From positions 147,085 to 211,084 of IMG/VR virus record IMGVR_UViG_3300017991_000001: 64,000 nucleotides of DNA. One strand, given 5' to 3'. The notes under the pieces are model-generated. The model was not told the origin of the DNA. It did not search any database and saw only the letters and a program-made list of their open reading frames with translations. Below, one piece after another: positions 39,707-60,905 of the stretch; position 1 is the first letter of the stretch; each line of letters starts with the position of its first letter. The position numbers were made by a program, and so were the translations under genes. The DNA is from a virus.

Positions 39707-41265
39707 TGCTTGTCTTTTCGGAATGGCTGAACGCGAATGAGGTCCGCCGCTACCCCCTCCATGACAGTGCGAGCGGGGAGCTGCAGGACAATATCCTCGT
39801 GGACGCCCGGCTTTGGGTGCCCAAGAGCGCGGGGCGCGTGGTCTACGTCTCTTCCGTGGGCATCACCAGCGGGCTGGTCACCCTGACCTTCCTGGCCGCG
39901 GCGGACTCCCCTTTCCTGGACGGCACCGGCACGCCGGTCTCCTTCACGCCGCTGGCGGTCGTGCGCGCCTCGCGGCCCGTGACCAGGTTCGTGAACATGG
40001 CCGTCGAGGCGCTCTACCCCGGCGTGGGTGGGTGGATCGCGCTCGGGGAAGGCGCCGTCGAGATCGAGAGCCTGAACGCCCGCTTTACCGGCCCGGCCGA
40101 GACCCAGCTCAACGAGCGCTGCGTGAACGTCTACGACGACGCGGCCGTGTCCAGCGTGGGCAAGGAAAACGTTGCCGAGGGGCTGACGGGCCTGATCACG
40201 CTCCGCGGCGAAGCCGGTGTGCTGAAGACGTTCAAGGCCACCCGTACGGTCGAAGGGGTGGACCGCGAGGTAGCCGTAGTGGCCATGGACCTGGGCGACA
40301 ACAAGGTGTCCAGGCTGCAGGACTTCTCCGGCGTGTGTGGCGGCCGGCCGCAAGCCAACACCTGCAGGAAGCGCGTGGTCGAGCGGATCAACACGGTCAC
40401 CCCGGACGACGACGGCAACATCGACCTGGTCTTCGAGGGGGACATGACGGTCGGGGACGTGCAGCGGGGGCTCATCGTGGACTTCCCCGTGGGACTGGAC
40501 GACGTGTGCCCCGAGTCGATCTCCAACGAGATCCCGTTCCCCGTACCGGGCGGCCCGCCGAGCCCGACGCCGCCCGAGCCGCCGCCGGAACCGTCCGGGT
40601 CTTCGGGCCAGTCCGACTCATCCGAGGGGCTTCCTTCGGGCTATTGCGAGGACTTCGAGGACGGCGTGGCCGAGGAGCTGGACAACTTCGTGGGCAGCTT
40701 CACAATCGAGGACGTACCCGGGCGCACCAAGCGTTACGTCAGCGCCGCCGATGACACCGGTCAGCAGCTTGCCACCAACTACCTGCGGCAGTTCAACACG
40801 GAAGAGGGTGAGACTTATACGGTCGTAAGCATCATTCGTCCGCGCAGCGTGGATGGCAAGAGTTTCCTGATCGCGGGCTTCAAGAACGACAACCTGTTCA
40901 CGTTCGCTGGCATTACGTTGGAGAACGGGGGCAGCTTCTTCGTCGGCAACAAGAGCGGCGAGACAGGCGGGTCCTTCGGTAGCGGGTACAGACCCTACCT
41001 GGAGTTCGCCCCCGAGTGGGACACGCCGCCGGACACGGATTACCAGGTAACCTTCGCCATCTACTCGAGCGACATCGCTGAGATGAAGGTGGCGTGGAAC
41101 GACGGCATCGCCGACCGGGAGCAGACACAGCTTGTGGTGCTGGCTTCCTTCCAGGAGAAGGGACGGCCCGGTCTGGGTGTGCTGAATTCGGAAACGGAGT
41201 TCGATGACTTCGGGGTCAACTGCGAAGAGTTCCCGTCGTCGTCATCGTCAAGTTCGGGGCCTTAA
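39706..41265 (+). CDS. WLNAN-YP family fibre protein 3 with polyserine C-terminus
   Basis: A 519-residue protein. N-terminus FSEWLNANEVRRYPLHDS and ILVDARLWV are the family domain; the second motif is ERINTVTPDDDGNIDLVF. A Pro/Ser-rich hinge (about 285-310) precedes a lectin- or LamG-like beta region (EGETYTVVSIIRPRSVDGKS; ENGGSFFVGNKSGETGGSFG), probably a carbohydrate-binding domain. Ends in [11 protein letters not shown]. The ATG overlaps the upstream stop. Confidence 0.6.
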   Translation: MLVFSEWLNANEVRRYPLHDSASGELQDNILVDARLWVPKSAGRVVYVSSVGITSGLVTLTFLAAADSPFLDGTGTPVSFTPLAVVRASRPVTRFVNMAVEALYPGVGGWIALGEGAVEIESLNARFTGPAETQLNERCVNVYDDAAVSSVGKENVAEGLTGLITLRGEAGVLKTFKATRTVEGVDREVAVVAMDLGDNKVSRLQDFSGVCGGRPQANTCRKRVVERINTVTPDDDGNIDLVFEGDMTVGDVQRGLIVDFPVGLDDVCPESISNEIPFPVPGGPPSPTPPEPPPEPSGSSGQSDSSEGLPSGYCEDFEDGVAEELDNFVGSFTIEDVPGRTKRYVSAADDTGQQLATNYLRQFNTEEGETYTVVSIIRPRSVDGKSFLIAGFKNDNLFTFAGITLENGGSFFVGNKSGETGGSFGSGYRPYLEFAPEWDTPPDTDYQVTFAIYSSDIAEMKVAWNDGIADREQTQLVVLASFQEKGRPGLGVLNSETEFDDFGVNCEEFPSSSSSSSGP

Positions 41266-41266
41266 G

Positions 41267-42043
41267 ATGGCCGAGCGCATCGTCGCCACCGAGTGGCGCA
41301 ACAACAACGAGCGGGTCCGCTACCCCTTCGTGGACACCACCTCACTTACCAGCGAGGACGGTGCGGCCACGATCGACCAGGACCTCTTCGACGACGCGCG
41401 GCTCTACCCCGTGGGTGCCGCAGTGGGCGTGTACCTGCGCAAAATCAACGTGGACGGCAAGAACGTGACCTTTACGGTGGGGGACCCTGTCAATGGGGAC
41501 CTGGCAGACGGTACTTATGACGCGACCTCCGCTCCGGCTGAGGTCCCGCTCTATGACGCCTACAACCGCCCCGCAGGCGTACTGGTATCGGACGCCGCGA
41601 GGCTGGGCGCACTGGCCGACCAGCTCCCGCAAGGCGAGACGGTCTTCGAGGCGGCGGCGACGGAATTTGTCGCGTCCGTCGTGATCCCCATGCCGCACCC
41701 CGGTGTGCGCGGTTTCCTGCTGGATGACGGCAACATCGTCTCCGGGGACGTGTGGCTGGTGGGCGAGGACGGGGTGGTGCTCTCCTACGAGGATGGGGCC
41801 ATCCGCGTCGATGTGATCGGCGACCCCTACGCGCTCATCAAGGACTGCGAGGAGCAGGGCCAGCCGCTGCCCACGTTCAACGGGCTGAAGACCCTCAACG
41901 ACATCGAGCCGGACGACGCCGGCGACTTCAAGCTCCTGGTGGGTGGCAACCTGTCGGAGAAGCCCGTATTGCGGATCGCCACGCAGGGTGGCGGTCGCAT
42001 CGAGTTCAAGCTGGTGGGCACCAGCGGGGTGAAGGAGATCTAG
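41267..42043 (+). CDS. WLNAN-YP family fibre protein 4
   Basis: A 258-residue protein; ATG 41267 directly follows the upstream stop region. N-terminus TEWRNNNERVRYPFVDTTS and FDDARLYPV are the family domain; the second motif is TLNDIEPDDAGDFKLLVGG. The shortest member: the two shared modules are nearly adjacent, joined by beta strands, which makes it the simplest view of the family fold. Confidence 0.6.
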   Translation: MAERIVATEWRNNNERVRYPFVDTTSLTSEDGAATIDQDLFDDARLYPVGAAVGVYLRKINVDGKNVTFTVGDPVNGDLADGTYDATSAPAEVPLYDAYNRPAGVLVSDAARLGALADQLPQGETVFEAAATEFVASVVIPMPHPGVRGFLLDDGNIVSGDVWLVGEDGVVLSYEDGAIRVDVIGDPYALIKDCEEQGQPLPTFNGLKTLNDIEPDDAGDFKLLVGGNLSEKPVLRIATQGGGRIEFKLVGTSGVKEI

Positions 42044-42044
42044 G

Positions 42045-42941
42045 ATGGCCGAGCTGGAATTTCTCGACCACATGGACAAGATCGCCTTCCCGCTTGTGAA
42101 CGGGGACGACCGGTCCTTCGTCGGCGGAGGCGCGCTGCCGCGGCAGGGCCTGTCCGACGCCGGCTTCCTGCTGGGGGTCGACAGCGGTTTCGTGGCCGCC
42201 ACGCACACGGTCCGCCTGTACAGCTACGCGCGCTCCGGCAGCACCATGTCATTCGACTTCCGCTCCGACGCCATGGTCGAGCACCGCTTCCTGTTCGAGG
42301 TGCCTGCGACCACATCGTTCGGCAAGGCGTTCAGGGTGACGGCCACGCGGATCGTGGGGGGCGCCTCCGCGCCCAGCTACGGCGAAGGCTACATCGTGGT
42401 CGGCAACCTGGAGGAGCTGGAAGCGCTGGGGGAAGGCACGTTCCTGTTGACGGGAACACTGCGGGTGGAGCCGGCGCTGCTGCAACCCCTGGTCAACACG
42501 CTGATGAACACGCTGAGCATCGCCAACGAGCCCAGGCTGTGCCCCACCGTCCCGGGCAGTTCCGCGGTGCCCGAGCCGGACTACGTGTGCCCCTTCATCA
42601 AGAACCTGGACGGGGCGATCAAGTTCTCCGAGGGCAACAACGCCCGGGTCTCCGTGGACGCGGACAACAACGTGCTCCAGCTGGGCGGTGCCGTCGGGGC
42701 GGGGCTTGGAGAGCCCTGCGAGGATGTTATCATCGACGAGGACTGCGGGTTCACGCGCGGGGAGGAGTGCGACCCGTGCGACGATTACATCCGTTCGTTC
42801 AACGGGATGCAGACGGAAGACGGGGTGATCTACTTCACAGAGGGACCAGGGGTGGTGGTCATCAACGAGCCGGACGACCACCGCATCCGCATCGTGATCG
42901 ATTCGGACCTGAGGACGTGCACGTCCTCATCGACGCCGTGA
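42045..42941 (+). CDS. WLNAN-YP family fibre protein 5 (divergent)
   Basis: A 298-residue protein. The first domain is degenerate (FLDHMDKIAFPLVNGDDR; GLSDAGFLLGV), and the second motif is RSFNGMQTEDGVIYFTEG. Cysteines (CPFIKNLDG; CEDVIIDEDCGF; CDPC) suggest disulfide or metal stabilisation. Ends CTSSSTP. Only one base separates it from the upstream stop, in keeping with an operon of paralogues. Confidence 0.55.
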   Translation: MAELEFLDHMDKIAFPLVNGDDRSFVGGGALPRQGLSDAGFLLGVDSGFVAATHTVRLYSYARSGSTMSFDFRSDAMVEHRFLFEVPATTSFGKAFRVTATRIVGGASAPSYGEGYIVVGNLEELEALGEGTFLLTGTLRVEPALLQPLVNTLMNTLSIANEPRLCPTVPGSSAVPEPDYVCPFIKNLDGAIKFSEGNNARVSVDADNNVLQLGGAVGAGLGEPCEDVIIDEDCGFTRGEECDPCDDYIRSFNGMQTEDGVIYFTEGPGVVVINEPDDHRIRIVIDSDLRTCTSSSTP

Positions 42942-44776: not shown

Positions 44777-46792
44777 ATGTCACTGGTCATATGGCGACCC
44801 TACGAGACGGAAGGCGACACTGATTGGCCGGCAGAACTGCGCGGCGGCGGCGAGGACTGGTGGCCGCGCCGTCACTTCGACGTGGAGAACATCATCGGGC
44901 GTCACGATATTTACTCCGATCCCCCGACGTGCATAGAGATGGCTTCGGAACACTCGAAGGGCCTTAACCAGATCATCGCCGTTATGAAGTACATGGTCTA
45001 CGCGTACGACCTCCACCTTTTTACCCCTACGCCTGACTATGTGGACGTGGACGAGTTTCAACAGGTCGGGTTTTCCAAGCGGTTCCCGGAACGAAATTTG
45101 TGGGACGACATCAAGCGCGACATAAACAACCTGCGAAGTGTCATAGGTGTTCCCGCTTTTTCATGGACGCTGCCTTACATCCGCCAGGTCCCCTTTATCC
45201 CGGGCGACGAACGGAAGTCGATGATCGGGAAGAACAAGATCAGCTTCGTCGATCTGACCGAGTTCAGACAAGCGTTGACCGAAGACGTGTATACGGCAGT
45301 CACGTTGCCGGAGTACTTTCAAGCAAAACCGTCTCAAGCCTACGTGAGAGAGTTTCAGGAGAAGTACCCGTCGGACATCACTGGCTATTTTTGGACGGCG
45401 GGTATGCGCATGCACATGAATCAGTATACGGGGTGTGGTGCGAGCGGTACGAGTGACCTGACAACGCTGGATAACTACTTTGACTGGTACTTCGACAAGC
45501 GACCCAACCACCACTACCCGGACCCTCCAGTGCACATTTCTCCGACAAAAGTGATCTTGTATTTGGAAGGTGAACGCAGCGAGCTTACTTGGAGCAGAGG
45601 CCCGGGGTGTCCTTCTTGTTCAGGTGACCATTATATTTATACCGGACAAAGAGGCATTTTCATGTTTAAGATTCCCCCCACGGCCGGGACATTGCCCATC
45701 ACCAAGATCACGTTGTACGGAACAACGGCAGGAGCTATAGCGGGTGTGGATGACAACGTGAGCTTCTGGATGCCTACGGAGGAATTTCTGAACGACGGGA
45801 TGGAAGACCCCGGCGCGTATGGCTCGCCGCTTGACAACATGTATCCTTTCGGCTTCGGTGGAGGTTTCAGACGCGTGCTTTGGAGACCGGCTACGCCGCA
45901 GTCTTTTCCCATGCTCGGAGGAAACAGTTCTTATCAGGAGTACACATGGGGCGGCGGTGCGGGCGGCGGTTTGGGCACGACAATGGTACAAGCCGTATCC
46001 TGGGTGAATGATCCCCTCCCCACTTATGACGGGATACGTTTCAATACGCTCGGCCACGTCCTCTATGTAGGCGGCACGAAGGTATGCGATTTCAGGAACT
46101 CAGCGTGCGTAACGCCTCCAGACCCATGCCTGGAATGTAGCCTCGGCGCAGGGGTCCTTCTTCTGGGCCAGGACGATCCCCGTGAGAACGGGTACTGGAG
46201 GGTCACAATGAGTGACCCCGACGGCAAAGGGTTGAAGCTGAATGTGACAAAACGCGGAAACCTTTGTCCGTACGCTTACTACCCTTCGGACATCGGTATT
46301 GCCTGTGAAGACGCTCAATTCATGTTTGCGACGTATCCCGACGACGGCGGAAGAGCCGGGTCGGTGTGGACGATAACGTCAGACCCCGTTGAATGTTCTT
46401 CGCTGTCGTCGGACGCGTCGGACTGTTCGGAGACCAGCGCGCAGAGTATTTCTTCCTCTACACCCTTTTCGTCGTCGTCGTCGTTCGGTTCCTGCGGAGG
46501 ACCCTTGAGGTTGCGCAAGATGACGGACTACGAACTCAGATACAGGAAGATTGCCACTTTACCGGATTGGGGCATTAAGCTGGGAACACACGACATGAGC
46601 GTGTACGATCATGGAGATCCGTTTGAAATTGAGCTGACAAACATCCCGGACTACGTGCGGGACGCGTGCCATGACTACTGGATGGTTGTTTCGCTTGATA
46701 AGGAGGTTGCGCGGACGGGCGTCTTTGACGAAGCGCTGTCGCTGCTTCTGTCTCGCTTGGAATTCGAGTTCGGTTCATCGTCGTCAGCCTAG
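44777..46792 (+). CDS. Large AT-richer virion/adhesin protein with serine tracts
   Basis: A 671-residue protein. It starts MSLVIWRPYETEGDTDWPAE, with a Trp-rich N-terminus (EDWWPRRHFDVENIIGRHD). Helical segments about 55-130 are followed by beta-rich domains, a serine-rich region at about 540-570 and a polyserine end. Codon use is distinctly AT-richer than the neighbours, indicating transfer or strong local divergence. No known domain. Position after the fibre suggests an adhesin or fibre-tip protein. Confidence 0.55.
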   Translation: MSLVIWRPYETEGDTDWPAELRGGGEDWWPRRHFDVENIIGRHDIYSDPPTCIEMASEHSKGLNQIIAVMKYMVYAYDLHLFTPTPDYVDVDEFQQVGFSKRFPERNLWDDIKRDINNLRSVIGVPAFSWTLPYIRQVPFIPGDERKSMIGKNKISFVDLTEFRQALTEDVYTAVTLPEYFQAKPSQAYVREFQEKYPSDITGYFWTAGMRMHMNQYTGCGASGTSDLTTLDNYFDWYFDKRPNHHYPDPPVHISPTKVILYLEGERSELTWSRGPGCPSCSGDHYIYTGQRGIFMFKIPPTAGTLPITKITLYGTTAGAIAGVDDNVSFWMPTEEFLNDGMEDPGAYGSPLDNMYPFGFGGGFRRVLWRPATPQSFPMLGGNSSYQEYTWGGGAGGGLGTTMVQAVSWVNDPLPTYDGIRFNTLGHVLYVGGTKVCDFRNSACVTPPDPCLECSLGAGVLLLGQDDPRENGYWRVTMSDPDGKGLKLNVTKRGNLCPYAYYPSDIGIACEDAQFMFATYPDDGGRAGSVWTITSDPVECSSLSSDASDCSETSAQSISSSTPFSSSSSFGSCGGPLRLRKMTDYELRYRKIATLPDWGIKLGTHDMSVYDHGDPFEIELTNIPDYVRDACHDYWMVVSLDKEVARTGVFDEALSLLLSRLEFEFGSSSSA

Positions 46793-46802: not shown

Positions 46803-47198
46803 ATGCTGCATCTACCTTTCAAGCTGTCGCCAACGGGCAGGGCGGAGCGTCCCAAGATCAACCGGCCCGCGCCTGCGCCCGCGCCTGCGCCCGCGCCTGC
46901 GCCCGCTCCCGTAATAGAACCCGAGGAAAACGTGTCGCACATGATAACGGACGACAACGTGTTGGACTTGCTGGACAACCAGCGCGTACTGTCGTTTCTT
47001 CCACACCTGGGTCCTGCCTTTAGCGGGTGGAAACCCAAGAAACCTTGCCCGCGAGAAGAGGAGCGCAGGGAGTACGCCAAGGTGCTCCGGCGCATGCTTC
47101 GCCACATGAAGCCGAAGCGCAGACGCCTGCTCAAGAAGGCTCTGCGTGTGAGGCGGCTGACGTTCAGTCTTGAAGGCGGTCCCGCGGAAACAATTTGA
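46803..47198 (+). CDS. Small Ala-Pro-linker protein, paralogue of 51979 and 51203
   Basis: A 131-residue protein; ATG 46803. After a short start it has an Ala-Pro repeat linker (about 21-37, coded by repeated GCGCCTGCGCCC units), then a folded region: DDNVLDLLDNQRVLSFLPHL, a CP...ERREYAKVLRRML helix, a basic helix, and RRLTFSLEGG. The same order of elements occurs in the proteins at 51979 and 51203. Unknown function; possibly a structural adaptor or scaffold for the nearby enzymes. Confidence 0.55.
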   Translation: MLHLPFKLSPTGRAERPKINRPAPAPAPAPAPAPAPVIEPEENVSHMITDDNVLDLLDNQRVLSFLPHLGPAFSGWKPKKPCPREEERREYAKVLRRMLRHMKPKRRRLLKKALRVRRLTFSLEGGPAETI

Positions 47199-47254: not shown

Positions 47255-49054
47255 ATGCGCGTATTCGTCCTGGGCATCCCCCACACGCAGACCACGATCG
47301 AGTTCACGACCTGTGCCTACACCATGAAGGTGTGGAACCTCTGCCGCATGCTGCACCGCCGCGGCCACGAGGTCATCCACATGGGCACGGAAGGGTCCAA
47401 CCCGGACTGCACGACCCACGTGTCGGTCACGCCGCTGGAGATGTGGGAGGAGCTGTACGGCCATCCGGGTGCGGGCTTCTACCAGACCAGCGCCGACGGG
47501 AAGTTCGCCCCGTACCACAACATCTACGAGCAGAACGTCCGCAGCGAGCTGTTGCAACGCGGAGGCGACCCCAACACCTCGATCGTCTGCGTGCCGTGGG
47601 GCGGCGCCCAGTTCAGGGCGCTGGAGGGCGTGCCGCAGCTGGCCTGCGAGAGCGGCATCGGCTACCACATCACCCAGCTGCAGAACCGGGTCTTCGAGTC
47701 CTACGCCTGGCTTCACTTCCACTGGGGCCGCGAGAACAAGCACGACGGCAAGGGCTGGTTCGATGCCGTGATCCCCAACGCCTTCGACCCCGAGATGTTT
47801 CCCTTCTCGCCCAAGGACAAGCGCAAGGACTACTTCCTCTTCATCGGCCGGCTGAACTGGGACAAGGGCGTGCCCATCGCCGTGGACGTGACCAAGCGCA
47901 TTGGCGCCAAGCTGAAGATCGTCGGCCCCGGCAGCCCCGAGCAGTGGGTCAAGGACAACCCGCACGTGGAGTACCTGCCGCCGGTGGGCGTGGAGGATCG
48001 CAAGAAGCTCATGGGCGAGGCCATCGCCACGTTCGTGCCCACCCAGTACCTGGAGCCCTTCGGCGGCGTCAACGTCGAGGCCCAGATGACGGGCTGTCCG
48101 GTGATCACCACGGACTGGGGCGCCTTCCCCGAGACGGTGCTCCATGGCATCACGGGCTACCGCTGCCGCTCCATCGAGCAGTTCGTGTGGGCCGCGAAGA
48201 ACATCGACCAGCTCGACCCGGCCAGCTGCCGGCAGTGGGCGCTGGCCAACTACTCGCTGGACCGCATCGCGCCCATGTACGAGGAGTACCTGCAGATGGT
48301 GCTCAATCGCAGGGGCCAGGGCTTCTACCAGGAGTTCCCGGAGCGCAAGCAGCTGATGTGGATGACCAAGGCCTTCCCGGCGGCGGCCACCGCGCAGCCG
48401 GCCATCCCGAAGGAGCACGTGGCCCCCAAGATCGACACGGCCTGGGAGCACGCGATCAAGTGGGAGGCGGAGTGGTGGGGCAACGAGCCCAACGAGCGCT
48501 GGGCGGCCGAGGTGGACAAGCAGAAGACCTACGCCCGCCTGATGGGCCTGCCGTACGACCTGGACATGGGCAAGAAGAACATCCTGGACGTGGGCTGCGG
48601 CCCGACCAGCATGCTGCTCAGGGCCAAGCACGGCGGCAAGTCGGTGGGCGTCGATCCGCTCCCCGTCTCCAAGAAGACAAAGGCCCGCTACAAGGACGCC
48701 AAGGTTAGGCTGTTCACCGTCAAGGGCGAGGACCTGTTCAACCCGGGCAACGGCACCAACACCCTGCGCGGCGCCACCTTCGACGAGGTCTGGATGTACA
48801 ACTGCCTGCAGCACTGCGACCAGCCGGCGATCATCCTCTCGCGCATCGCGCTGGCGGGGAAGGTCATCCGCATCTTCGAGTGGCTCAACATGGGCGTGGC
48901 TCCGGGCCACCCTCACAACCTGACGGAGAAGCTGTTTGAACTCTTCCGTAACCCGGAAATGTGGGTACAACATATCTGGAACACCGGCGTGCTGCGGGAC
49001 TTCGGCGGCACCGTGAACAACAATTACCTGGCCATCCACGTGGAGCGCAAGTGA
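47255..49054 (+). CDS. Fusion of GT4-type glycosyltransferase and SAM-dependent methyltransferase
   Basis: A 599-residue protein; ATG 47255 with GGAG upstream, rather than the in-frame codon at 47195. Residues 1-350 resemble a GT-B family-4 glycosyltransferase (MRVFVLGIPHTQT; DYFLFIGRLNWDKGVPIAV), with the donor-sugar EPFGG...E motif at 267-275 and a TDWGAFPETV turn. Residues about 440-560 are a class I methyltransferase (ILDVGCGPTSMLL, motif I, 443-455; then VGVDPLP). It may add and methylate a sugar. Neighbouring GT9-like enzyme and polyserine proteins suggest virion or host-surface glycan modification. Confidence 0.7.
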   Translation: MRVFVLGIPHTQTTIEFTTCAYTMKVWNLCRMLHRRGHEVIHMGTEGSNPDCTTHVSVTPLEMWEELYGHPGAGFYQTSADGKFAPYHNIYEQNVRSELLQRGGDPNTSIVCVPWGGAQFRALEGVPQLACESGIGYHITQLQNRVFESYAWLHFHWGRENKHDGKGWFDAVIPNAFDPEMFPFSPKDKRKDYFLFIGRLNWDKGVPIAVDVTKRIGAKLKIVGPGSPEQWVKDNPHVEYLPPVGVEDRKKLMGEAIATFVPTQYLEPFGGVNVEAQMTGCPVITTDWGAFPETVLHGITGYRCRSIEQFVWAAKNIDQLDPASCRQWALANYSLDRIAPMYEEYLQMVLNRRGQGFYQEFPERKQLMWMTKAFPAAATAQPAIPKEHVAPKIDTAWEHAIKWEAEWWGNEPNERWAAEVDKQKTYARLMGLPYDLDMGKKNILDVGCGPTSMLLRAKHGGKSVGVDPLPVSKKTKARYKDAKVRLFTVKGEDLFNPGNGTNTLRGATFDEVWMYNCLQHCDQPAIILSRIALAGKVIRIFEWLNMGVAPGHPHNLTEKLFELFRNPEMWVQHIWNTGVLRDFGGTVNNNYLAIHVERK

Positions 49055-49512
49055 GCGTCGTCGCACACATCATGGAAGAGGTGGAGCCGGGCCTGTATGC
49101 AGACTCCGCGAACCACCTGAAGATCGTGCGAGCCGTGCTGTCCAGGGCCAGCTACCGCCCCCGCAGCCACGGTGTCGAGCACTGCCCGCCCGACGTGGTG
49201 GAGTACTACCGCACGCAGACCAACATGCGTTACCCCTACAGGGCCGCGTTCACGGACAGCTTCACGAACCGCGTGCGCCGGTTGCCGGGCGACATCGTTG
49301 TGGCGACCGAACCGTGGCACCGGGAGTGCTTCAAGGGACTCCTGCGTAACGGCGCGTGGGACGGGATGCATGTCATTGAACTGCTACGCCAGGAGGGAGA
49401 GGACGCTCCGATCGCGACCGCCCGGATGACCCTGGCGCTGTCGGAGCTGAACAGATGCCCGAACCGGTTTGCATCAAAAATACGCAGAGTCCTGGAGACT
49501 ACATTGTCCTGA
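49051..49512 (+). CDS. Unknown protein between two glycosyltransferase genes
   Basis: A 153-residue protein; GTG 49051 overlaps the upstream stop by four bases (an alternative ATG lies at 49072). It is alpha/beta with HIMEEVEPGLYADSANHLK near the start and a Tyr/Arg-rich middle (YYRTQTNMRYPYRAAFTDS); the end is basic. Fifty-eight bases overlap the next gene, unusual for this genome. Possibly a helper of the adjacent glycosyltransferases. No family recognised. Confidence 0.5.
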   Translation: MSVVAHIMEEVEPGLYADSANHLKIVRAVLSRASYRPRSHGVEHCPPDVVEYYRTQTNMRYPYRAAFTDSFTNRVRRLPGDIVVATEPWHRECFKGLLRNGAWDGMHVIELLRQEGEDAPIATARMTLALSELNRCPNRFASKIRRVLETTLS

Positions 49513-51206
49513 CGGCGGCACTGCGGGACATCACGCTGTGCTACCCGGGCGTCTTCCAGTTCACCGCGGCCACGCCGGAGCCGGACATCTGGCGCAACAA
49601 CCCGCTGGTGAAGCACGGGGATAAGCGCGGCATCAGGCGCATCGTGGCCAGGTACTCCTCGCCCAACAACCCCTACCGCATCCACAAGTCCAACCAGGCC
49701 CGCGCCCACTTCATGTGGTCCTTCCTGGCCGACCTCAACCTGATGCTGAAGACCCACGCCGTGCTGACGGACTTTCGTCCGGCACTGTACCTGACCGAGG
49801 AGGAGAAGGCCACGCCCCTGCTCCAGACGGACAAGCCGTACTGGGTGATGGTGGCCGGCGGCAAGCGGGACTTCACGGCGAAGTGGTGGGACAAGGACCG
49901 CTGGCAGCAGGTGGTCGACCGCGTCAAGGACAGGGTGACGGTCGTACAGGTGGGCGGAGGCAGCCACATCCACCCAAGACTCACGGGTGTGCATGACCTG
50001 GTGGCCAAGACCTCCTTCCGCGAGCTGATGCGGCTGATCTACCACAGCCACGGGGTCTTCTGCATCGTGACCTGCCTGATGCACATCGCCGCGGCCTTCA
50101 ACAAGCCCTGCGTGACGGTGGCCGGCGGCCGGGAGCCGTGGTGGTGGGAGGCGTACAACGAGGAGAACCGCCTGGCCAACATGCGGATCGGCCGGGCGGA
50201 CTGGAAGCCGCCCGAGCCCGACACGTTCATCCCGCACCGGTACATCTACCTGGAGTGCGACAAACCCAAGTGGAGTGGCGGGCGGGGGTGTTGGAAGAGC
50301 AAGCTGGAGGGTGGGAACAAGTGTGAGGATATCGTGGCCACGCAGACGGGTCTCAGGCTCCCGCACTGCCTGGACAAGATCACGGCCGAAAGGGTGGTCA
50401 AGGAGTTCGAGTGGTACTACGAGAACGAGATCCTGTCGCTGGACAAGAAACTGATCCTGCCTCCCATTATCCCCGCCATTCCTTCAAGCAACGCCTATCC
50501 GACCCCACAGGCGTACGTGCCGAGCAAGTCGAAAGCCAAAGTACCCAAGGGCAGGGCGCAACCCACGCCCCTCTGGCATGATGTGGCCAAGCCGGCACCC
50601 GAACCGAACCTGGACAAGACCCACCTGTTCGTATACCTGGGCGGCCAGACCAGGCTGGACTACCTGAACCAGATACGGGAGCGTTCCCCCCGCGCGGCGC
50701 TCACGGCTGTCTGCAACACCGCCTCCGGCGAAGTGGACAACTGGTGCAAACACAACGCGGCCGAGGCCGTCATGGACGGGGCCGAACCGGGGCGCCCGGA
50801 GATGCTCTACCGCGCGCTCTCCGACGCCAAGCGCGAGCAGCTCGTGTGGATCGAGTACCCCGTCATGCCGCGTGCCGGCCACTGGGGCAGGTACCTTACG
50901 CCGTTCCCCGATAAGTCCTTCGGCGGCTGCTTCTACTGGCAGCGCATAACCGACGGGCATGAGCAGCTGATGAAGTCATCTCCGTGGGCAAAGGGTTGGA
51001 ACCCCCGGCAGCATGGCACGGAAGGCTTCGCCACCATGGTCTTTCCGCTGCGCGGGTACTTGGTGCTTCCGCGAAGCCTGGTCGGTCGTATAGAATGGGC
51101 GTGCAGGCACGTGCCCGACGCGGCGTTCGAGCTGGTGCTGGGCGCGCTGCTGAGCCAGTGGCAGACACCTCTGTTGGACTTGGGCCATACGGTGGAACAC
51201 CAATGA
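49455..51206 (+). CDS. GT9-like glycosyltransferase with extra C-terminal domain
   Basis: A 583-residue protein. N-terminal PVCIKNTQSPGDYIVLTAAL, and later a KWWDKDRWQQVVDRV helix after a VMVAGGKRDFTA strand, match the GT-B glycosyltransferase family 9 (heptosyltransferase-like) pattern. MHIAAAFNKPCVTVAGGRE fits the donor-site region. The C-terminal ~200 residues after a Pro/Lys-rich linker form a separate alpha/beta domain (LFVYLGGQTRLDYLNQIRER). The start is taken to begin the first beta strand although this causes a 58-base overlap. Confidence 0.6.
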   Translation: MPEPVCIKNTQSPGDYIVLTAALRDITLCYPGVFQFTAATPEPDIWRNNPLVKHGDKRGIRRIVARYSSPNNPYRIHKSNQARAHFMWSFLADLNLMLKTHAVLTDFRPALYLTEEEKATPLLQTDKPYWVMVAGGKRDFTAKWWDKDRWQQVVDRVKDRVTVVQVGGGSHIHPRLTGVHDLVAKTSFRELMRLIYHSHGVFCIVTCLMHIAAAFNKPCVTVAGGREPWWWEAYNEENRLANMRIGRADWKPPEPDTFIPHRYIYLECDKPKWSGGRGCWKSKLEGGNKCEDIVATQTGLRLPHCLDKITAERVVKEFEWYYENEILSLDKKLILPPIIPAIPSSNAYPTPQAYVPSKSKAKVPKGRAQPTPLWHDVAKPAPEPNLDKTHLFVYLGGQTRLDYLNQIRERSPRAALTAVCNTASGEVDNWCKHNAAEAVMDGAEPGRPEMLYRALSDAKREQLVWIEYPVMPRAGHWGRYLTPFPDKSFGGCFYWQRITDGHEQLMKSSPWAKGWNPRQHGTEGFATMVFPLRGYLVLPRSLVGRIEWACRHVPDAAFELVLGALLSQWQTPLLDLGHTVEHQ

Positions 51207-51554: not shown

Positions 51555-52040
51555 ATGACGACCGTGCCGACCGAGTTCTATACGGGTGACAGCAGCCGCT
51601 ACATCAAATTGCAGCGGGAGGGCATGACCACCTACGTGAGCGGCCGCACGCAGGGCTTCCGCGTGCGGATCACGGCCATCGAATCCAACGAGATGCCGCT
51701 GGAGATCTTCGTCTACCAGCACCTCCCCTTCCCCGACAGCGAGACCGGGTACCAGGACCGTTTCGTCAACATTGCCAGCCCCAACGACATCGAGGAGTAT
51801 AATGTGGGTGAGGTGGGGGATTCCACGCGCCCCTTCTTCCGGCTGGCCGCGATCGACCTGGTCTTCCGCAACGATGACATGCTCGAGGAGGCGGTCCAGA
51901 AGATCTACGACGAGATCGGCCAGCTCGTGGAGAGCCTCAACTACATGGACGACCTCGAAGTGCAGGAGGAAGTGACCATTGGGACACCGCCAACTAGTTC
52001 CTCCTCCTCGTCCTCCGATTCAAGCTCGAGCTCGTCCTAA
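51555..52040 (+). CDS. Virion-like beta protein with polyserine C-terminus
   Basis: A 161-residue protein: beta strands (FRVRITAIESNEMPLEIFVY; FVNIASPNDIEEYNVGEVGD), a helix (DDMLEEAVQKIYDEIGQLV), and a C-terminal tail that is almost all serine. It resembles the other serine-tailed virion proteins in the window. Its last 62 bases overlap the next gene. Probably a small structural or glycosylated surface protein. Confidence 0.55.
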   Translation: MTTVPTEFYTGDSSRYIKLQREGMTTYVSGRTQGFRVRITAIESNEMPLEIFVYQHLPFPDSETGYQDRFVNIASPNDIEEYNVGEVGDSTRPFFRLAAIDLVFRNDDMLEEAVQKIYDEIGQLVESLNYMDDLEVQEEVTIGTPPTSSSSSSSDSSSSSS

Positions 52041-54001: not shown

Positions 54002-54490
54002 ATGTTCACCGCCGACTTCGTCAAGGGCGCCACCCGCCTGTCGGATGAGAACATCCGCTACGTGCTGACGGTCTGCCTGCACCGCAAGGTCGAGGGGCCG
54101 GTGACCAGCGGGGAGCTGTTGTGCCTGCTGGTCTTCGACCTGCTCAAGGGGATGGGCTTCTCCGTCGAGCACCTGACGGCCATACTGCTCCACTGCGGGG
54201 AGCGTCTGATCGGAATAGGGAAGGTGTTCGACCTGGCCAAGCCCGGCGACGAGATCGAGTTCCAGTCGCTGCAGATTCTGGACAACCGGTGGGTGGTGAT
54301 GAACGAGGAAGTGCCGTACGACTTCACGAAAATGGAACCGGCGCCACAGTCTCCGCTGCCTGTGCTTTCTCTTGCTGTCGCGCTGCCAAGGCTGTATCAG
54401 CTCGCGATTTCAGCTTCTGCACCCGCTCCTCGTCAGCGTTCTTCAGGGGCAACGAAGCCAGATCGGAAATCAGGCGACGCATCCGGGTGA
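54002..54490 (+). CDS. Unknown protein overlapping a convergent minus-strand gene
   Basis: A 162-residue frame without a clear Shine-Dalgarno. The first ~110 residues look coding and helical (DENIRYVLTVCLHRKVEGPV; GERLIGIGKVFDLAKPG; RWVVMNEEVPYDF). The last ~55 residues (from MEPAPQ) are low complexity and overlap antisense to the 3' end of the gene at 54324, so real coding may stop being constrained there. Probably a small accessory protein; function unknown. Confidence 0.45.
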   Translation: MFTADFVKGATRLSDENIRYVLTVCLHRKVEGPVTSGELLCLLVFDLLKGMGFSVEHLTAILLHCGERLIGIGKVFDLAKPGDEIEFQSLQILDNRWVVMNEEVPYDFTKMEPAPQSPLPVLSLAVALPRLYQLAISASAPAPRQRSSGATKPDRKSGDASG

Positions 54491-55067
54491 GCAGGTACTC
54501 GTCGATCTCCATGCGCTTGCGGGTCTGCATGTCCCAGTAGGCGTTGACCTCGATCGCGTCAACGGCCAGCCCCTCCTCGACACTGCTGGCGTCCTGCAGT
54601 TCGGTGCCCACGTGGGGCGCGAGGATCTGCGGGACCTGGGTGAAACCCTCCTCCTTCAGCGACGTTTTCATGTACGCCAGGATCTCCGAGGAGAAGTCCT
54701 CGTCCTCCCCGAGCGGGTCGATCAGGTGCTGCTCGGACAGCGCCCAGCACATCTCCCGGACGGTGGCCGGGTCGTAGCTGGCGAAGTCCGCGCCGTTGCC
54801 GGAGAGGGCGTTGCAGGCGTGGATGAAGAACTCAAGGCTGACCTGGAAGAGGTTGGTCGTGACGATGTTGATCAGCGCCCAGATCTTGTCCATGTTCTCC
54901 TGGGGCGGCTCGGCGCCCCAGGCGGCCCTGATCTCCATGCGCAGGGTGTCGGGCTCCCAGTCGAAGAGCTCCGTGCCGAACCGGTCAAGCAGGATGACCA
55001 GCAGGGGCGTGGCGATGGCGTCGGGGTCGCGTAGCATGTCGGCCACGCGTTTCTCTTCCTGGCGCAT
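54324..55067 (-). CDS. Unknown minus-strand protein 3, 247 aa
   Basis: The last gene of the minus-strand cluster, following the 55069 gene with TGATATG spacing. The 247-residue product is alpha-helical and acidic (EKRVADMLRDPDAIATPLLV; KIWALINIVTTNLFQVSLEF; FASYDPATVREMCWALSEQH), ending in a Lys/Arg/Gln-rich coiled-coil-like helix. No motif recognised. Its final 167 bases overlap the + strand gene at 54002. Confidence 0.65.
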   Translation of the reverse strand: MRQEEKRVADMLRDPDAIATPLLVILLDRFGTELFDWEPDTLRMEIRAAWGAEPPQENMDKIWALINIVTTNLFQVSLEFFIHACNALSGNGADFASYDPATVREMCWALSEQHLIDPLGEDEDFSSEILAYMKTSLKEEGFTQVPQILAPHVGTELQDASSVEEGLAVDAIEVNAYWDMQTRKRMEIDEYLLTRMRRLISDLASLPLKNADEERVQKLKSRADTALAARQQEKAQAAETVAPVPFS

Positions 55068-55068
55068 A

Positions 55069-55641
55069 TCAGTTTCCGAACGTGGGCGGCACGTATCCAG
55101 AGAGCAGGGCGGCGCGCAGGCTGGCAGGCGTCGCGGGTTTGGGTTCGGGCACGTTGCTCAGGCCGTAGGCCGTGCCGAGAGCGGCGGCCGGCGCCATGAA
55201 GCCCAGCGTGCGGGCCGTGCGCGGGTTGGTGGGTCCGCCGGCCAGGCGCACCAGCAGCTTCTGGATCTCGGGCGAGAGCTCGTAGGACATGTTCGAGATG
55301 CTGTGCCCCAGGCTTTCGGCCAGGCCGGGTACGGTCGGGCCGCCTTCGGGTATGCCCGAGGGCAGCTCGATCTTGGCCGGGTAGTCCGCGCCGACGCGGT
55401 GCTCGGGCGCCTCCACGGCCTTGGGTGCGGGCTTGCCTTTGCCCTTCTTGCCTTTGGGTTTGCCCTTACCCTTGATCTTACCCTTCGCTTTGCCCAGGCC
55501 CTTGCTCAGGCCCTTGCCCAGGCCCTTCTTGCCCACGAGGCGCGCGCCGGCGCGCAGAGCCGTGCGCATGATGGCCGCTTTCTCCACGCCTTCGGACGAG
55601 CCGAGGCCGCAGAGGAGGCCGAGCTTCGATGCTGTGGTCAT
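55069..55641 (-). CDS. Unknown minus-strand protein 2 with Lys-Gly repeat
   Basis: A 190-residue protein with an AAGGAGACGTC ribosome site. Residues about 38-72 are a GKG/KGK-type Lys-Gly repeat (KGLGKGLSKGLGKAKGKIKG, then further GKGK units), followed by a proline/glycine-rich segment and a helical C-terminal domain (SPEIQKLLVRLAGGP). The repeat resembles that of the small protein at 53162. The basic repeat may bind nucleic acid or the inner virion DNA. VEKAAI near the start loosely recalls the tag family's A-end. Confidence 0.55.
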   Translation of the reverse strand: MTTASKLGLLCGLGSSEGVEKAAIMRTALRAGARLVGKKGLGKGLSKGLGKAKGKIKGKGKPKGKKGKGKPAPKAVEAPEHRVGADYPAKIELPSGIPEGGPTVPGLAESLGHSISNMSYELSPEIQKLLVRLAGGPTNPRTARTLGFMAPAAALGTAYGLSNVPEPKPATPASLRAALLSGYVPPTFGN

Positions 55642-55651
55642 GGACGTCTCC

Positions 55652-56980
55652 TTACTTGTCGCTGATGCGGTTGACCGGTACGGCCATCGTGTAGCGAATG
55701 TCTCGGGGGCTGTGCCCCTTTTTCCTGAAGAACTCGAGCATGCTTTCGCGGCTGAAGGGGTCCTCGCCGGGCAGCTTGGTGTAGGGGTTGTTCTGGAGCT
55801 TGTTGTGGCCGGCGGTCTTGTTCAGCTCCTCGTCGGCGGCTTCGGAGATCACCTTCTCCAGCAGCGACGCGTCCGTGCGCGGCAGCGTCGGCAGGATCTC
55901 GGCGGCCTTCTCCGTGTCGACGCTCATGCCGTCCTTGGCCATGATGGCGTCCACCAGCTCCTGTCCCATCACGGAGGCGATCTTGTCCAGCGGGAGGTGC
56001 TTCAGGGCTTCCACCGGATAGGTGTTGCCGGTGGTCAGCGTGATGAAGCCCTCCTTGATGTGCTGAGCCTGCTTGGCGACCAGCTGGAAGAGCGCCTCCT
56101 CGGGCAGCTCCACGCCGTGGTGGTAGTGGTTGCAAATGCCGCTTTCGCGGTCGATGGCATCGATGGCGGCGGCCGTCTTCTGCAGGAAGGCCGGCGTGCA
56201 GGCTGTGACCGGCATGGCGTGGATGGTCTTGGCCACCTTGGCCAGCTTGATCTTCAAGGGCTTGTGCCGCTCGCCCAGCATCATCACGCGCTGAGCCACC
56301 TTCTCCGCGACATGCTCGGGGAAGGAGGCGCCGATGCCGGCAGCCTTCTCCAAGTATTCCCGCGTGTCGGCGCCGAAGCGCAAGGCACCCAAGTCAGCGC
56401 CGGCGATCTTCTCGCCTTTCTTCCAGCGCTCGTCGTATTCGTTGGCTTTTCTGAGGATGTTGCGCGCGGCGGTCTTGCGCCACGGATACGGGTAGCGGAA
56501 GCGGTTGGCGAAGAGGTACTCGCCGGCCAGCTTCACCGATATGGGATTGGGCATCGGGAACATCTTCACTTTCCTGCCGCCATAGTCGACTACCAGGGCG
56601 CAGTCCTTCTCGTCCGCGGCCTGCTTGTTCATGCCGGAGACGCGGTCCCAGTTGCGCCGGAAGGCTTTGACGAGGCCGGAGATGCCGAAGTGTTCAGCGG
56701 CCTTTTCGATGCGGGCTTGAATGAAGGCTGCTTCCTTCTTAGAGTAGCCCTCCTGGCAGAGCGTGAAATACGCCTGCGCAAGCCACGTGGCTGCTTTGGT
56801 GTGGCACGGGAACTTGCGTCTCCGGGAGTCGCCGAAGACATGGCCGGGGAGCTGGTCCACCCCTTCCCGATGTTTCAACGCCGAAGCGTTCTTGACGAAA
56901 TCGGGTATACCATGCAGCCGTTCAAGCGTGTAGAATCGCTGCTGGTTGGGGTCATCAAGAAAATCGCAAGGTCCGCGCAT
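55652..56980 (-). CDS. Unknown minus-strand protein 1, 442 aa
   Basis: The ATG at 56980 (reading leftwards) follows GGAGGAGAAGG, a strong ribosome site; an upstream TTG at 57055 is not used. The protein is mostly helical: NQQRFYTLERLHGIPDFV, ATWLAQAYFTLCQEGYSKKE, GLVKAFRRNWDRVSGM, plus a beta section DCALVVDYGGRKVKMFPMP, and several K-A/K-E-A sites. Its divergent start shares the CATG palindrome with the primase-like gene. No family recognised; head-inside or accessory role cannot be separated. Confidence 0.6.
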   Translation of the reverse strand: MRGPCDFLDDPNQQRFYTLERLHGIPDFVKNASALKHREGVDQLPGHVFGDSRRRKFPCHTKAATWLAQAYFTLCQEGYSKKEAAFIQARIEKAAEHFGISGLVKAFRRNWDRVSGMNKQAADEKDCALVVDYGGRKVKMFPMPNPISVKLAGEYLFANRFRYPYPWRKTAARNILRKANEYDERWKKGEKIAGADLGALRFGADTREYLEKAAGIGASFPEHVAEKVAQRVMMLGERHKPLKIKLAKVAKTIHAMPVTACTPAFLQKTAAAIDAIDRESGICNHYHHGVELPEEALFQLVAKQAQHIKEGFITLTTGNTYPVEALKHLPLDKIASVMGQELVDAIMAKDGMSVDTEKAAEILPTLPRTDASLLEKVISEAADEELNKTAGHNKLQNNPYTKLPGEDPFSRESMLEFFRKKGHSPRDIRYTMAVPVNRISDK

Positions 56981-59642
56981 GCCTTCTCCTCCAAACGATT
57001 TATCGCGCCACGTACCGCCTGCTTCGATACTAGCTCCGGCAGGGATAACCGTCAAGGATGTGACCCCCGAGGTTACCGACTGTCCCTTCTGTCATGAGCA
57101 TACGCTCTCCATCTACATGGACCCCATCCTGTCCGGCACGGGAAGATGGCTCAGGTGTTCCGCTTGTGGCAATCAGGGGGACACCATAGAGACGTACGGT
57201 CGCATGCTCGGCATCGACGACGTCAGGAAAGCGTTCCAGCAGGTGGTTGCCGACGGGCTCTTCAAAGCCTCCTGGCACGAGGTCACACCCGACATTGTTG
57301 ACAGCTACATCGCCAACTACCCCGGTCATCGCAGCCGCCTCGAAGGGTATTGGGAAAAGTTAAGGGACACCATCAATAATGTCGATCCCCGCATGGTGGC
57401 TCGAGGCCACGGCGACCACTTGTGGGGCGGCTGGAACACGTGTACCAAGGGCCGGCTCCGGCGTTTCCTGGGTGGCGGCAAGCGCAGAGACATCATCGAC
57501 ATCTTCGGCGACCGAAAGATCCTTCCTCGAAGGGGACATAATACCAACTTCGTCCTTAACTACCAGGATGTACCGGGCAGGATTTGCGCCTTTCAGTTCC
57601 TGGGCGAGGAGGCGGACACGCTGAAAATGTTCCACCGCTCCGGCAAGCGCACCGGCGGAGAGGGCGGCCTGTCCATGCTGGATGTCCTGGAGCCTTACGA
57701 GGACACCGTTTACGCGCTGGGCAGCCCACGCACCGCGCTGCTGATGCAGCAGTACAAGATGGGCACGCTGCCCGAACCCCTGAAGATGGTGGTGTACAAC
57801 CAGCACACGCGCAAGTCCTGGGACAGCATCTCGGCCCGGCGCGTGATCTTCTGGGAGGCGGCCCCGTCGCAGGAGCTGTTCGCCCAGGTGCGACAGATCG
57901 GGCTGGGCGCGGGGTTCGTGACCCACAAGCCGAACCTGCGCAAGCGTTCGGACCAGCTGCACGTCTACCTGTGCGAGCAGGGCCTGGAAGGGTTCATGCG
58001 GATCATGCAGCGCTTCGCCCGCCCCTGGCCGGAGGCGCTGGCCAAGTGGATCATCGACCAGAACATGGACGAGGGCCTGCTCCGGGGGTTGGCCAGCAAC
58101 CTGCAATTCGACCACGACGAGCGCCTGGCCATCATCGACGCCTTCCCCTCCCGCTACCGCGATCAGGTGGAGTTCTGCCTGGGCGACGAGCGCATCACCC
58201 TCAGCACGTTCGTGAAGGGGTCCGGCGTGGTGGAAGCCGACGGCGTGTGGAGCGCCATGCGCGGTTCCAGGGAGCGGGAGCTGGTCTCTGACGCGATCAT
58301 CAAGATCCTGCGCGAGATCACCGACGAGGACACCAAGAAGGTCTACTGGGACGGCTTCATCCGCTTCAAGGGCGAGCAGATCCCCTTCAACGAGCCGGTC
58401 GAGAACATCGAACTCAACCCGCGCAGGTGGTTGATCGGGGCGGTGGAGGCGGCCGGCCTGGGACGGCCCAACATACAGCACAGCTGGTCCAAAAGCCTGA
58501 TGCAGCTCGCGCAGCAGTTCTCCACGCCGCAGCGCATGTTCGGGACGTCCAGGCTGGGCATCCGCTCCGACGGGCGCGTCATCTTCCCCAACTTCACGAT
58601 CGAAGGCGGCCAGGCCAAGGAACAGCGGACCGTGATACGGGCGCAGGACTGCCCGGCCGCGCACATACACCCGCCGGTCAAGCGCCGCCTGCGGGACTGC
58701 GATGAGCCCTGCCCGGAAAGGTCCCTCTTCACGGCCATGATGACCTCTTTCGTCTCAGGCCTGATCGCGCCGCTGTTCGGCGACGAGCCCCGTCCCGTGG
58801 CGGTGGTGGGCCCCATCGGATCGTTCGGCCGTAGCATGGCACAGACCTTCTGCAAGCACGCCGGGATGCGCACCATCGAGCTGGAGGACGGGAAGTGGTC
58901 CGTGATCGACGGGGCACAGCAGCGCGTGGGCCTGCACAACTACCCCGTCATGCTCGACACACGTGCGCCGGGGCTGCTGAAGGACTGGAGCCACAAGCGC
59001 TCGAAGCACCTGTTCATGACCACGGACGTGGTGGAGGCTTCGGCCCTGTGCACGGGCGCCAACTGGGTGTTCATCTACGGGCAGAAGCTGACTCCGCTTA
59101 CACGAGCCATCGCGCCCTTCGACGACGTGCTCTGGTACCTGGCCGACCTGCAGCGCCGCAGGTATGAGCTGCCCCATGGCCAGGACCGTGAGGACGCTGT
59201 ACTCAAGGACATCTGTCTATGGTATGAAGGGTATCTGAGAAAGGAGGATTTGAGCCGTTATAATGAAACGCGCAAGGTGATGGCCACGGCCATGTCGCCC
59301 AGCATGGCGGCGATGCGCCTTTACTGCCACCTGTACCGGCAGAAGCTGGTCCGGCGGGACTACGAACCGTTCATGGCCAACGTGGCCGCCGGGGGCTCCA
59401 TAGGCAAGAAGAGCAGCAGCATCGTGATCGACATGGAGGAGGAGCGCGTATTCCTGTCCAGGGCCAGCCTACGCAACGCGGCCAAGCGAGCGGCCGTGCC
59501 GGCGCCGGACCTGGTGAAGATCTCCGAGGACCTGATGGAATGTGGCGCGCTATTCGAGACGGGGGCGTCCCTGGACGGATGGGTCGTCTCCCTGAAGGAT
59601 TGGGAGACGCTTGTCGCGGACTGGCAACGGTGGGACCTGTAA
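56979..59642 (+). CDS. Zinc-finger primase-like protein with degenerate P-loop
   Basis: An 887-residue protein; ATG 56979 (in-frame TTG 56946 lies inside the divergent gene). Residues 35-63 form a CPFC...CSAC zinc ribbon followed by GNQGDTIETYGRM, as in DnaG-type primases. The middle is helical and basic. Around residue 611, VAVVGPIGSFGRSMAQ looks like a P-loop that lacks the invariant GK(S/T). The C-terminal part is alpha/beta (VEASALCTGANWVFIYGQ). Likely a primase or primase-helicase related replication protein, unusual within a structural region. Which enzymatic activity remains is uncertain. Confidence 0.5.
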   Translation: MPSPPNDLSRHVPPASILAPAGITVKDVTPEVTDCPFCHEHTLSIYMDPILSGTGRWLRCSACGNQGDTIETYGRMLGIDDVRKAFQQVVADGLFKASWHEVTPDIVDSYIANYPGHRSRLEGYWEKLRDTINNVDPRMVARGHGDHLWGGWNTCTKGRLRRFLGGGKRRDIIDIFGDRKILPRRGHNTNFVLNYQDVPGRICAFQFLGEEADTLKMFHRSGKRTGGEGGLSMLDVLEPYEDTVYALGSPRTALLMQQYKMGTLPEPLKMVVYNQHTRKSWDSISARRVIFWEAAPSQELFAQVRQIGLGAGFVTHKPNLRKRSDQLHVYLCEQGLEGFMRIMQRFARPWPEALAKWIIDQNMDEGLLRGLASNLQFDHDERLAIIDAFPSRYRDQVEFCLGDERITLSTFVKGSGVVEADGVWSAMRGSRERELVSDAIIKILREITDEDTKKVYWDGFIRFKGEQIPFNEPVENIELNPRRWLIGAVEAAGLGRPNIQHSWSKSLMQLAQQFSTPQRMFGTSRLGIRSDGRVIFPNFTIEGGQAKEQRTVIRAQDCPAAHIHPPVKRRLRDCDEPCPERSLFTAMMTSFVSGLIAPLFGDEPRPVAVVGPIGSFGRSMAQTFCKHAGMRTIELEDGKWSVIDGAQQRVGLHNYPVMLDTRAPGLLKDWSHKRSKHLFMTTDVVEASALCTGANWVFIYGQKLTPLTRAIAPFDDVLWYLADLQRRRYELPHGQDREDAVLKDICLWYEGYLRKEDLSRYNETRKVMATAMSPSMAAMRLYCHLYRQKLVRRDYEPFMANVAAGGSIGKKSSSIVIDMEEERVFLSRASLRNAAKRAAVPAPDLVKISEDLMECGALFETGASLDGWVVSLKDWETLVADWQRWDL

Positions 59643-60902
59643 ATGGCCCGTAACCCACAGGCCTTGACCATCGTCAAGAACATCTCCGGCGGGGGACTGT
59701 TCTTCGGGTGGATTCCTCCGCACGGCCGCTACCTCGAAGACGACGAGCGGATCGAAATACAGGGTACGCTCGAGACCCTCTTCCAGACGGACCCCAACAA
59801 GACCTACCTGCGCGAGTACCTGCGCGACATCGCCGACCAGCGTGTCGAGGTTTCCCACGAGGCCGGCTCCACGGTCGCCGCGCACACGCCTGTCGACGAC
59901 AACTTCGAGCTGGCCAACATCACCAGCGCGGAAGCCGAGTTCTACCGGGACCAGATGCTGTGTCTCTCGGAGGAGTCGGGCCTTTACCGTTTCGACGCGC
60001 AAAGCACGCTGACACCCGACGCCGACAAGGTCGTCATACCGTTCGACCTGCCGTCCGTGGCGCTGCCCGGACGCTGGATCAAGCTCACCGGGCCGGCTGC
60101 GGTGGTTACGCCGGGACCGACGGGCGTCACCGGGGTCACGGGTGCGACCGGGGCCGACGGGGTCACGGGTGCGACCGGGGCGACAGGCGTCACCGGTGCC
60201 ACCGGTGCGGGCGTGACGGGCGTGACGGGTGTGACGGGTGTGACCGGTGTCACGGGTCCTCCCGGCATGGGCACCGCGATCAAACTGGAAGTCGCGGACA
60301 TCGACAACCCGATCGAGCTGCATGGCGTCCAGGGCGACGAGAACGGGAAGCTGGCGGTTGTTTCACAGGTCAACGAGTGCAACAACGATTTCACCATCTA
60401 CTCGTGGGATTCGGGGGAGGCGCCGTCCAGCTCATCTTCGTCCTCTTCCTCGTCGAGCTCATGTGAACCTGAGGACATACCTTACACTGTGGATGGGGCG
60501 GTCGGCCGCTGGATCGCGGTGGGCGGCAAATACATCTACAACCTCCAGGACACAGGTGATTTCGACGGAGATCAGATAGTCACGTCCGGCAGCGGAATTA
60601 CAACGATCTCCACTGTTCCGGTGCCCGACAATACGGTTATACTGATCACAGTGTGGGTCTCGTGCCGGCGCCTCGACGACGAGGACCGCGGAGGGTATCA
60701 GCGTCAGGCGCTCGTGTACCGGGAAGGGGGCGGAACTGCCAAGAGGCAAGGCAACACGCAGACCCTGTTCACGAGGGAGTCGGTGGGCCAGTACCAGGTC
60801 TTCATCAATGTGAGCGGGAACAACGCGCTGATCCAGGTGCGGGGCCGCGTAGGCCATACGGTTAGATGGAAGAGCAAGTACTTCACCACGGAGGTCGCGT
60901 AA
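59643..60902 (+). CDS. Collagen-like tail fibre with FGWIPPHG anchor and polyserine tract
   Basis: A 419-residue protein. The N-terminal domain ([25 protein letters not shown]) is the same as the small protein at 9698. Residues about 155-215 are Gly-X-Thr collagen-like repeats ([10 protein letters not shown] type). A second domain with [14 protein letters not shown] precedes a 13-residue serine tract (about 261-273). The C-terminal domain ([28 protein letters not shown]) matches the next gene's C-terminus. Trimeric, elongated fibre expected, likely attached through the N-terminal domain. Confidence 0.7.
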
Positions 60903-60905
60903 CCA

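Follow-up and report, generated by a model that had tools for sequence, protein, structure and literature searches.

A candidate virion-protein glycosylation cassette in a virus genome: a GT9-fold glycosyltransferase beside a GT4-methyltransferase fusion

Glycosylation of mycobacteriophage virions was reportedly described by Freeman et al. in 2023, with glycans on the particle said to affect recognition. Here we examine a 64,000-nucleotide stretch (the window; positions 147085-211084 of the 211,084-bp IMG/VR virus record IMGVR_UViG_3300017991_000001) in which a GT4 glycosyltransferase fused to a class I methyltransferase (GT4-MT; 47255-49054, plus strand) and a GT9-fold glycosyltransferase (49455-51206, plus strand) are encoded inside a block of virion genes. 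Among the closest described enzymes, TibC, a BAHT enzyme like AAH, glycosylates Ser, not Thr, at its mapped sites and carries a four-cysteine iron finger (PMC4358343), while C. difficile SgtA, whose gene adjoins bclA3, adds sugar to the Thr residues of peptides with collagen repeats (PMC7157674). WaaC and WaaF (RfaC/RfaF) are lipopolysaccharide (LPS) heptosyltransferases of the GT9 fold, and the glucosylsucrose synthase TeGSS is a retaining, UDP-glucose-using enzyme whose acceptor is sucrose (PMC9909042). For the glycosyltransferases of pelagimyophage tail islands, the published default reading is a change of the host LPS (PMC7029224). Judging from the genes found beside the relatives of each enzyme, we consider it rather likely that the present locus is a virion-protein glycosylation cassette, in which the GT9-fold enzyme would act on Ser tracts and the GT4-MT on Gly-X-Thr fibres.

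A scan of genome contigs yielded 68 relatives of the GT9-fold enzyme, mostly from Planctomycetes and also from Bacteroidota, Verrucomicrobia, Acidobacteria, Armatimonadetes, Caballeronia and Pseudomonas. Open reading frames (ORFs) with at least six consecutive Ser were present within about 5 kb of the gene at 24 of the 68 loci, the nearest at a median distance of 660 nt and, in 21 of the 24, encoded in the same direction as the GT9 gene, as compared with 4 of 60 control stretches from the same genomes (surroundings of RecA-family genes and arbitrary stretches; p = 6e-5, or p = 9e-7 when only the 40 loci with sampled genomes are considered). Around conventional GT9 genes of the same genomes such an ORF was found near 1 of 40 (p = 3e-5). 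Runs of at least 10 Ser occurred at 12 of the 68 loci and at none of the 60 and 40 controls, an extreme case being the 53 consecutive Ser at the locus L254, and there was no enrichment of Thr, Pro, Ala, Gln or Gly runs near the 68 relatives. A literature search on polyserine together with bacterial glycosyltransferases returned nothing relevant.

The GT4 domain belongs to a large phage family, of which an alignment-based scan of viral contigs recovered at least 592 members; the best 80 were kept, giving 56 non-redundant loci, or 54 without the window and its closest relative found, a piece of a 163-kb viral contig (L002). A collagen-like run lay no more than 6 kb from the GT4 gene at 30 of the 54 loci, versus none of 80 T4-like terminase loci covering a similar amount of sequence. 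Over all 56 loci, collagen-type Gly-X-Y runs were seen in 32-40% of 2-kb bins across the 4 kb upstream of the GT4 gene, falling to 22% in the bin 4-6 kb upstream and 2-9% in other bins. The loci are related to one another, and single-linkage clustering at 70% identity left 16 groups, with collagen in 10. The composition of these collagens is a stronger sign than their proximity: Thr occupied position Y in 56% of all triplets near GT4, and the per-locus median was 61%, as compared with 27% at 65 other phage collagen loci that had been fetched by a GPX pattern with Y left free (p = 7e-6); for Thr and Ser together the values were 70% and 32% (p = 3e-7). Phage lineage may contribute to this bias. 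Polyserine is rare around GT4 relatives (3 of 55 loci, L002 included), so that each enzyme family has its own type of partner. Nothing relevant was returned by a literature search on phage collagen together with glycosyltransferases.

Because relatives of the two enzymes repeatedly adjoin Thr-rich collagen-like fibres and pure Ser runs, the phage probably glycosylates its own particle proteins. A preliminary description of this DNA had put forward the Ser/Thr-rich virion proteins of the phage itself as targets of the two enzymes. The neighbour associations, positive against controls both for GT4 with Thr-rich collagen-like genes and for GT9 with polyserine genes, speak for that proposal as regards the type of acceptor, though they do not show the reaction. 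The same description had mentioned that glycosylated virions occur in some actinobacteriophages; no link to this group was found, the named GT4 relatives being cyanophages and the GT9 relatives mostly Planctomycetes, Bacteroidota and Verrucomicrobia.

Several observations weigh on the other side. In the fetched flanks of 44 of the 68 GT9 relatives there is no Ser run. Many Thr-rich phage collagens have no copy of this GT4 in the stretch that was fetched, and the GT4-collagen link is therefore a strong tendency, not a rule. GT4 relatives often lie in tail-fibre islands, which by itself may bring them into some proximity to collagen. Within the window, the Gly-X-Thr fibres (59643-63178) are at least 8 kb from both enzymes.

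The GT9-fold protein matches Glyco_transf_9 with 52 bits (cut-off 22) over residues 53-239, the glycosyltransferase part extending over residues 1-330, whereas its C-terminal ~240 residues gave zero family matches. Part of this C-terminal region (50540-51203, residues ~385-583) is common to L002 only and was modelled with low confidence; a model built from 58 sequences had good confidence for the GT9 domain. When this model was submitted to Foldseek, GT9 enzymes ranked first, and the best query TM-scores belonged to TibC chains (mostly 0.37-0.39, root-mean-square deviation (rmsd) about 5), followed by WaaC/WaaF (0.30-0.34, rmsd 6.7-9.7); ranked on E-value alone, a Veillonella GT9 and WaaF came slightly ahead of TibC. 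The model opens directly with the strand-helix unit that bears D15, a residue invariant in the subfamily. Also invariant in the 58 sequences are C279, C290 and C305, and a CC pair is present in 57, the window protein having a single nearby Cys, C268. With its invariant Asp and conserved cysteine cluster, the GT9 apparently forms an undescribed subfamily. In phages, tblastn of named phages and scans of viral contigs found this GT9 in L002 only. As an observation in its own right, bacterial members at L220, L231, L234, L282 and L285 occur in fusions of up to 1350 residues with FkbM or other methyltransferases, Mannosyl_trans3 or GT34 domains.

The likeness to the BAHT enzymes comprises the GT9-type fold, with the best TM-score and a low rmsd, a conserved cysteine cluster near the end of the catalytic domain, and Ser acceptors, which for the phage enzyme are proposed. 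There are also differences: the TibC cysteines (339/342/358/370) are spaced unlike C279/C290/C305, the phage protein is without the N-terminal beta-barrel (TibC residues 1-97), the proposed acceptors are pure Ser tracts and not autotransporter repeats, and the donor may not be a heptose. The BAHT model TIGR04414 did not match the window protein at E<=1 and matched 1 of the 58 relatives (E 0.0018). Membership of the BAHT family was rejected because TIGR04414 is unmatched and the TibC barrel is missing; the GT9 may work like a BAHT enzyme but is not filed as one.

The similarity to WaaC/WaaF, which consists of the GT9 fold and a weak profile similarity, bears on the alternative that the enzymes modify a host surface glycan (LPS core, O-chain or wall polymer) and so block superinfection or change the receptor. 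This role is the one usually proposed for glycosyltransferases of tail-fibre islands (PMC7029224), and the fold is indeed that of LPS heptosyltransferases. The phage GT9, however, reached only 35.4 bits with the LPS heptosyltransferase equivalog model, far below its cut-off of 185.3, all 58 subfamily members have Val or Ile where the NDSG motif of WaaF has its Asp, and the protein has a C-terminal cysteine cluster and polyserine neighbours. Membership of the WaaC/WaaF family was rejected on the missed cut-off and the replaced Asp. Further, no membrane span was found in the form of a sufficiently hydrophobic 19-residue window, and modification of host glycans leaves the polyserine and Thr-rich collagen links, the former absent near conventional GT9 genes, unexplained. 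We therefore regard this alternative, which the preliminary description had also raised, as weakened and unlikely.

Residues 1-359 of the GT4-MT match the glycosyltransferase family phrog_3408 (6e-85), and the protein scores 60 bits with Glycos_transf_1 (cut-off 26). The methyltransferase occupies residues ~400-599, of which ~440-530 match class I methyltransferase models, only Methyltransf_11 above cut-off. The E-x7-E motif (E267, E275) is invariant in the three sequences from the window, L002 and a cyanophage, and the start codon is the same as in L002. TeGSS (PDB 7FG9, E 7e-31) is the nearest solved structure to the GT4 domain, and it differs in its sucrose acceptor, which is not a protein, and in having no methyltransferase domain. 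A functional precedent for the proposed GT4-MT step is offered by SgtA-BclA3, where the glycosyltransferase gene adjoins a collagen-like gene and the Thr of Gly-X-Thr is O-glycosylated; there, the acceptor is a bacterial spore protein, SgtA is not known to have a fused methyltransferase, and the likeness is one of function.

Keeping in mind that the nearest solved GT4 enzymes use small-molecule acceptors, the two enzymes might have split roles, the GT9 alone acting on the phage's Ser tracts and the GT4-MT on another target, which might be a small molecule, a glycan of the host or one already attached to the same proteins. The distance of the fibres from the cassette in this phage would fit such a division, as would a related locus (L218) in which the GT9 is present without GT4-MT directly upstream. 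The family-wide tie of GT4 to Thr-rich collagen and the retention of both genes together in L002 argue the other way, and we consider split roles quite improbable.

The methyltransferase of the fusion varies within the GT4 family. Besides the window type, the GT4 is fused to unrelated methyltransferases of the Methyltransf_23 type (6 loci) and the FkbM type (3 loci), and to an N-terminal pair (1 locus); this variety of fusions of one GT4 suggests that the sugar transferred by the GT4 is what receives the methyl group. In Synechococcus phage ACG-2014f, the methyltransferase and the GT4 are two adjoining genes in that order, followed by a PiuC oxygenase, and a collagen repeat protein is encoded in the same tail-fibre region. 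PiuC-like 2OG-Fe(II) oxygenases were also seen beside or near the GT4 in several phages (L003 (KJ019093.1), L007, L013, L049, L065 and others), and none was found in the terminase control loci. The joint occurrence of PiuC-like and collagen-like genes suggests a module in which the collagen fibres of phages are both hydroxylated and glycosylated.

Glycosyltransferases of the T4 type glycosylate phage DNA. By this precedent, the enzymes might protect the phage DNA against restriction, and some GT4 relatives (clusters 6-11) do adjoin replication genes. In the window, however, the neighbours are virion genes, and DNA glycosylation would account neither for the methyltransferase fusions nor for the links to collagen and polyserine; we hold it to be very improbable.

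Candidate acceptors of both types are present in the phage together with both enzymes. Six ORFs of the window contain coding-strand runs of at least 6 Ser, and each of them belongs to the virion-type part. One candidate for the GT9, a virion-block protein (51555-52040, plus strand), has C-terminal SSSSSSSDSSSSSS, with the polyserine tail TSSSSSSSDSSSSSS, and its tail is conserved in position in L002. Tracts of 6-13 Ser also occur in ORFs 9620-9940, 10044-10967 (plus strand; internal tracts of 10 and 6 Ser), 35466-37346 (plus strand; a tail-region protein with an internal 13-Ser linker), 39706-41265 (plus strand; a tail-region protein with a C-terminal SSSSSSS, the same tail being present in L002:3103-4704) and 59643-60902. 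A Ser-rich protein next to the cassette (44777-46792, plus strand) contains SSSSS and is likewise a candidate acceptor, as are the proteins of 10044-10967, 35466-37346 and 39706-41265. In the record outside the window, only runs of 5-6 Ser were seen, mostly on the minus strand, where they may not be coding; runs of at least 7 Ser were confined to the virion-type part of the window. The tracts mix TCN and AGY codons, which cannot be interconverted by single base changes, so that an origin by codon slippage was rejected; it is apparently the protein sequence of the tracts that is maintained. In three homologous gene pairs, whose proteins are ~42-47% identical, a C-terminal Ser tract or Ser-rich tail stands at the same place in L002.

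The candidate acceptors of the GT4-MT are two collagen-like fibres with matches to Pfam Collagen, one composed mostly of GVT (60906-62120, plus strand; Thr in Y in 62 of 78 triplets) and the other of GAT, GVT and GPT (62132-63178, plus strand; 34 of 54). Preceding these, the fibre-like protein of 59643-60902 (plus strand) has a short Gly-X-Thr run (Thr in Y in 14 of 16 triplets) and a 12-Ser tract; since it carries both acceptor types, either enzyme might act on it.

What follows on the acceptors of this phage, on the chemistry and on its purpose is our proposal. The GT9-fold enzyme would transfer a sugar from a nucleotide donor to the hydroxyl groups of Ser where several virion-block proteins have polyserine tails or linkers, with Asp15 as the probable catalytic base and the cysteine cluster as a probable metal finger. 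The GT4 half of the fusion would place a sugar onto Thr of the Gly-X-Thr fibres, or extend such a glycan, and the fused methyltransferase would O-methylate, and thereby cap, the sugar added by the GT4. Both modifications would be made in the host cytoplasm, either ahead of particle assembly or in the course of it. As to purpose, the likeliest are that the linkers become solvated and resist proteases and that collagen fibres lacking hydroxyproline become stiffer; shielding of the particle, which the preliminary description had suggested, is possible. A collagen helix that lacks hydroxyproline can be stabilised by sugars attached to Thr in position Y. Helix stabilisation, which would be a more direct purpose than hiding, would suit the GVT fibres of a record in which a 2OG-Fe(II) oxygenase (PF13640-type) that might hydroxylate the fibres was sought, as it was in L002, and not found; an epimerase-type sugar-nucleotide gene was likewise not found.

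About evenly balanced, in our judgement, is the broader proposal that the GT9 stands for a cytoplasmic system of polyserine O-glycosylation that has not been described before, its enzyme having a fold like that of TibC and probably a metal finger; that this system is spread over Planctomycetes and several other bacterial phyla, where it adjoins proteins with pure Ser tracts, and was taken up by a phage lineage for glycosylating the Ser linkers of its particle; and that beside it a large phage GT4 family, often methyltransferase-fused, decorates Thr of collagen-like fibres. If this is true, virion glycosylation would extend among phages well beyond the few cases described so far, tail-fibre-island glycosyltransferases would often modify fibres and not the LPS to which they are now usually assigned, and the polyserine tracts of Planctomycetes and other bacteria would gain a probable function as O-glycan carriers, together with an enzyme.

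Megablast of the window DNA against 50,697 phage records gave zero matches. The window from ~36 kb to ~59 kb is collinear with L002, in which both glycosyltransferases stand at the matching place inside a matching plus-strand gene run (identity 62% for GT4-MT and 41-45% for GT9). The virion block is recognised by a match of gene 28998 to baseplate wedge (phrog_6) and of gene 42949 to tail-fibre/head-decoration proteins. The layout given in the preliminary description, a GT4-MT fusion and a GT9-like enzyme in a virion block with serine-tract neighbours and Gly-X-Thr fibres downstream, was borne out; the enzymes are upstream of the fibres as it stated, though not adjacent, since a gap of ~8 kb with minus-strand genes and the plus-strand 56946-59642 intervenes. 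This interruption of the virion block before the collagen fibres (54324-59642) consists of three minus-strand genes and an 898-aa gene with a zinc-ribbon-like N terminus that appears primase-like by eye.

Between the two enzymes lies a gene (49072-49512, plus strand; 146 aa) that aligns with L002:11889-12761, a glycosyltransferase-like gene of 290 aa, with the middle missing. The L002 gene scores 2e-9 with the GT4-family profile and the window copy gives no score, for which reason the latter is probably a decayed third glycosyltransferase.

L218 (JAAZKG010000162.1) is a 21-kb contig binned as an Erysipelotrichia metagenome-assembled genome. Its GT9 is followed by apparent homologues of window genes 51555, 53435 and 54324, as judged from unscored translations, and because of this it looks like a phage of the same lineage; its homologue of 51555-52040 has a short C-terminal Ser stretch. 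Upstream of its GT9, in place of the GT4-MT, is a 1653-aa protein with calcium-binding-type repeats. In the window, genes 37356, 38282, 39706 and 41204 (37356-42941) are weakly similar to one another, as seen in cross-matches to L002, and may therefore be a tandemly duplicated family. Directly before the GT4-MT gene, 46803-47198 encodes a 131-aa protein with an alternating Ala-Pro linker.

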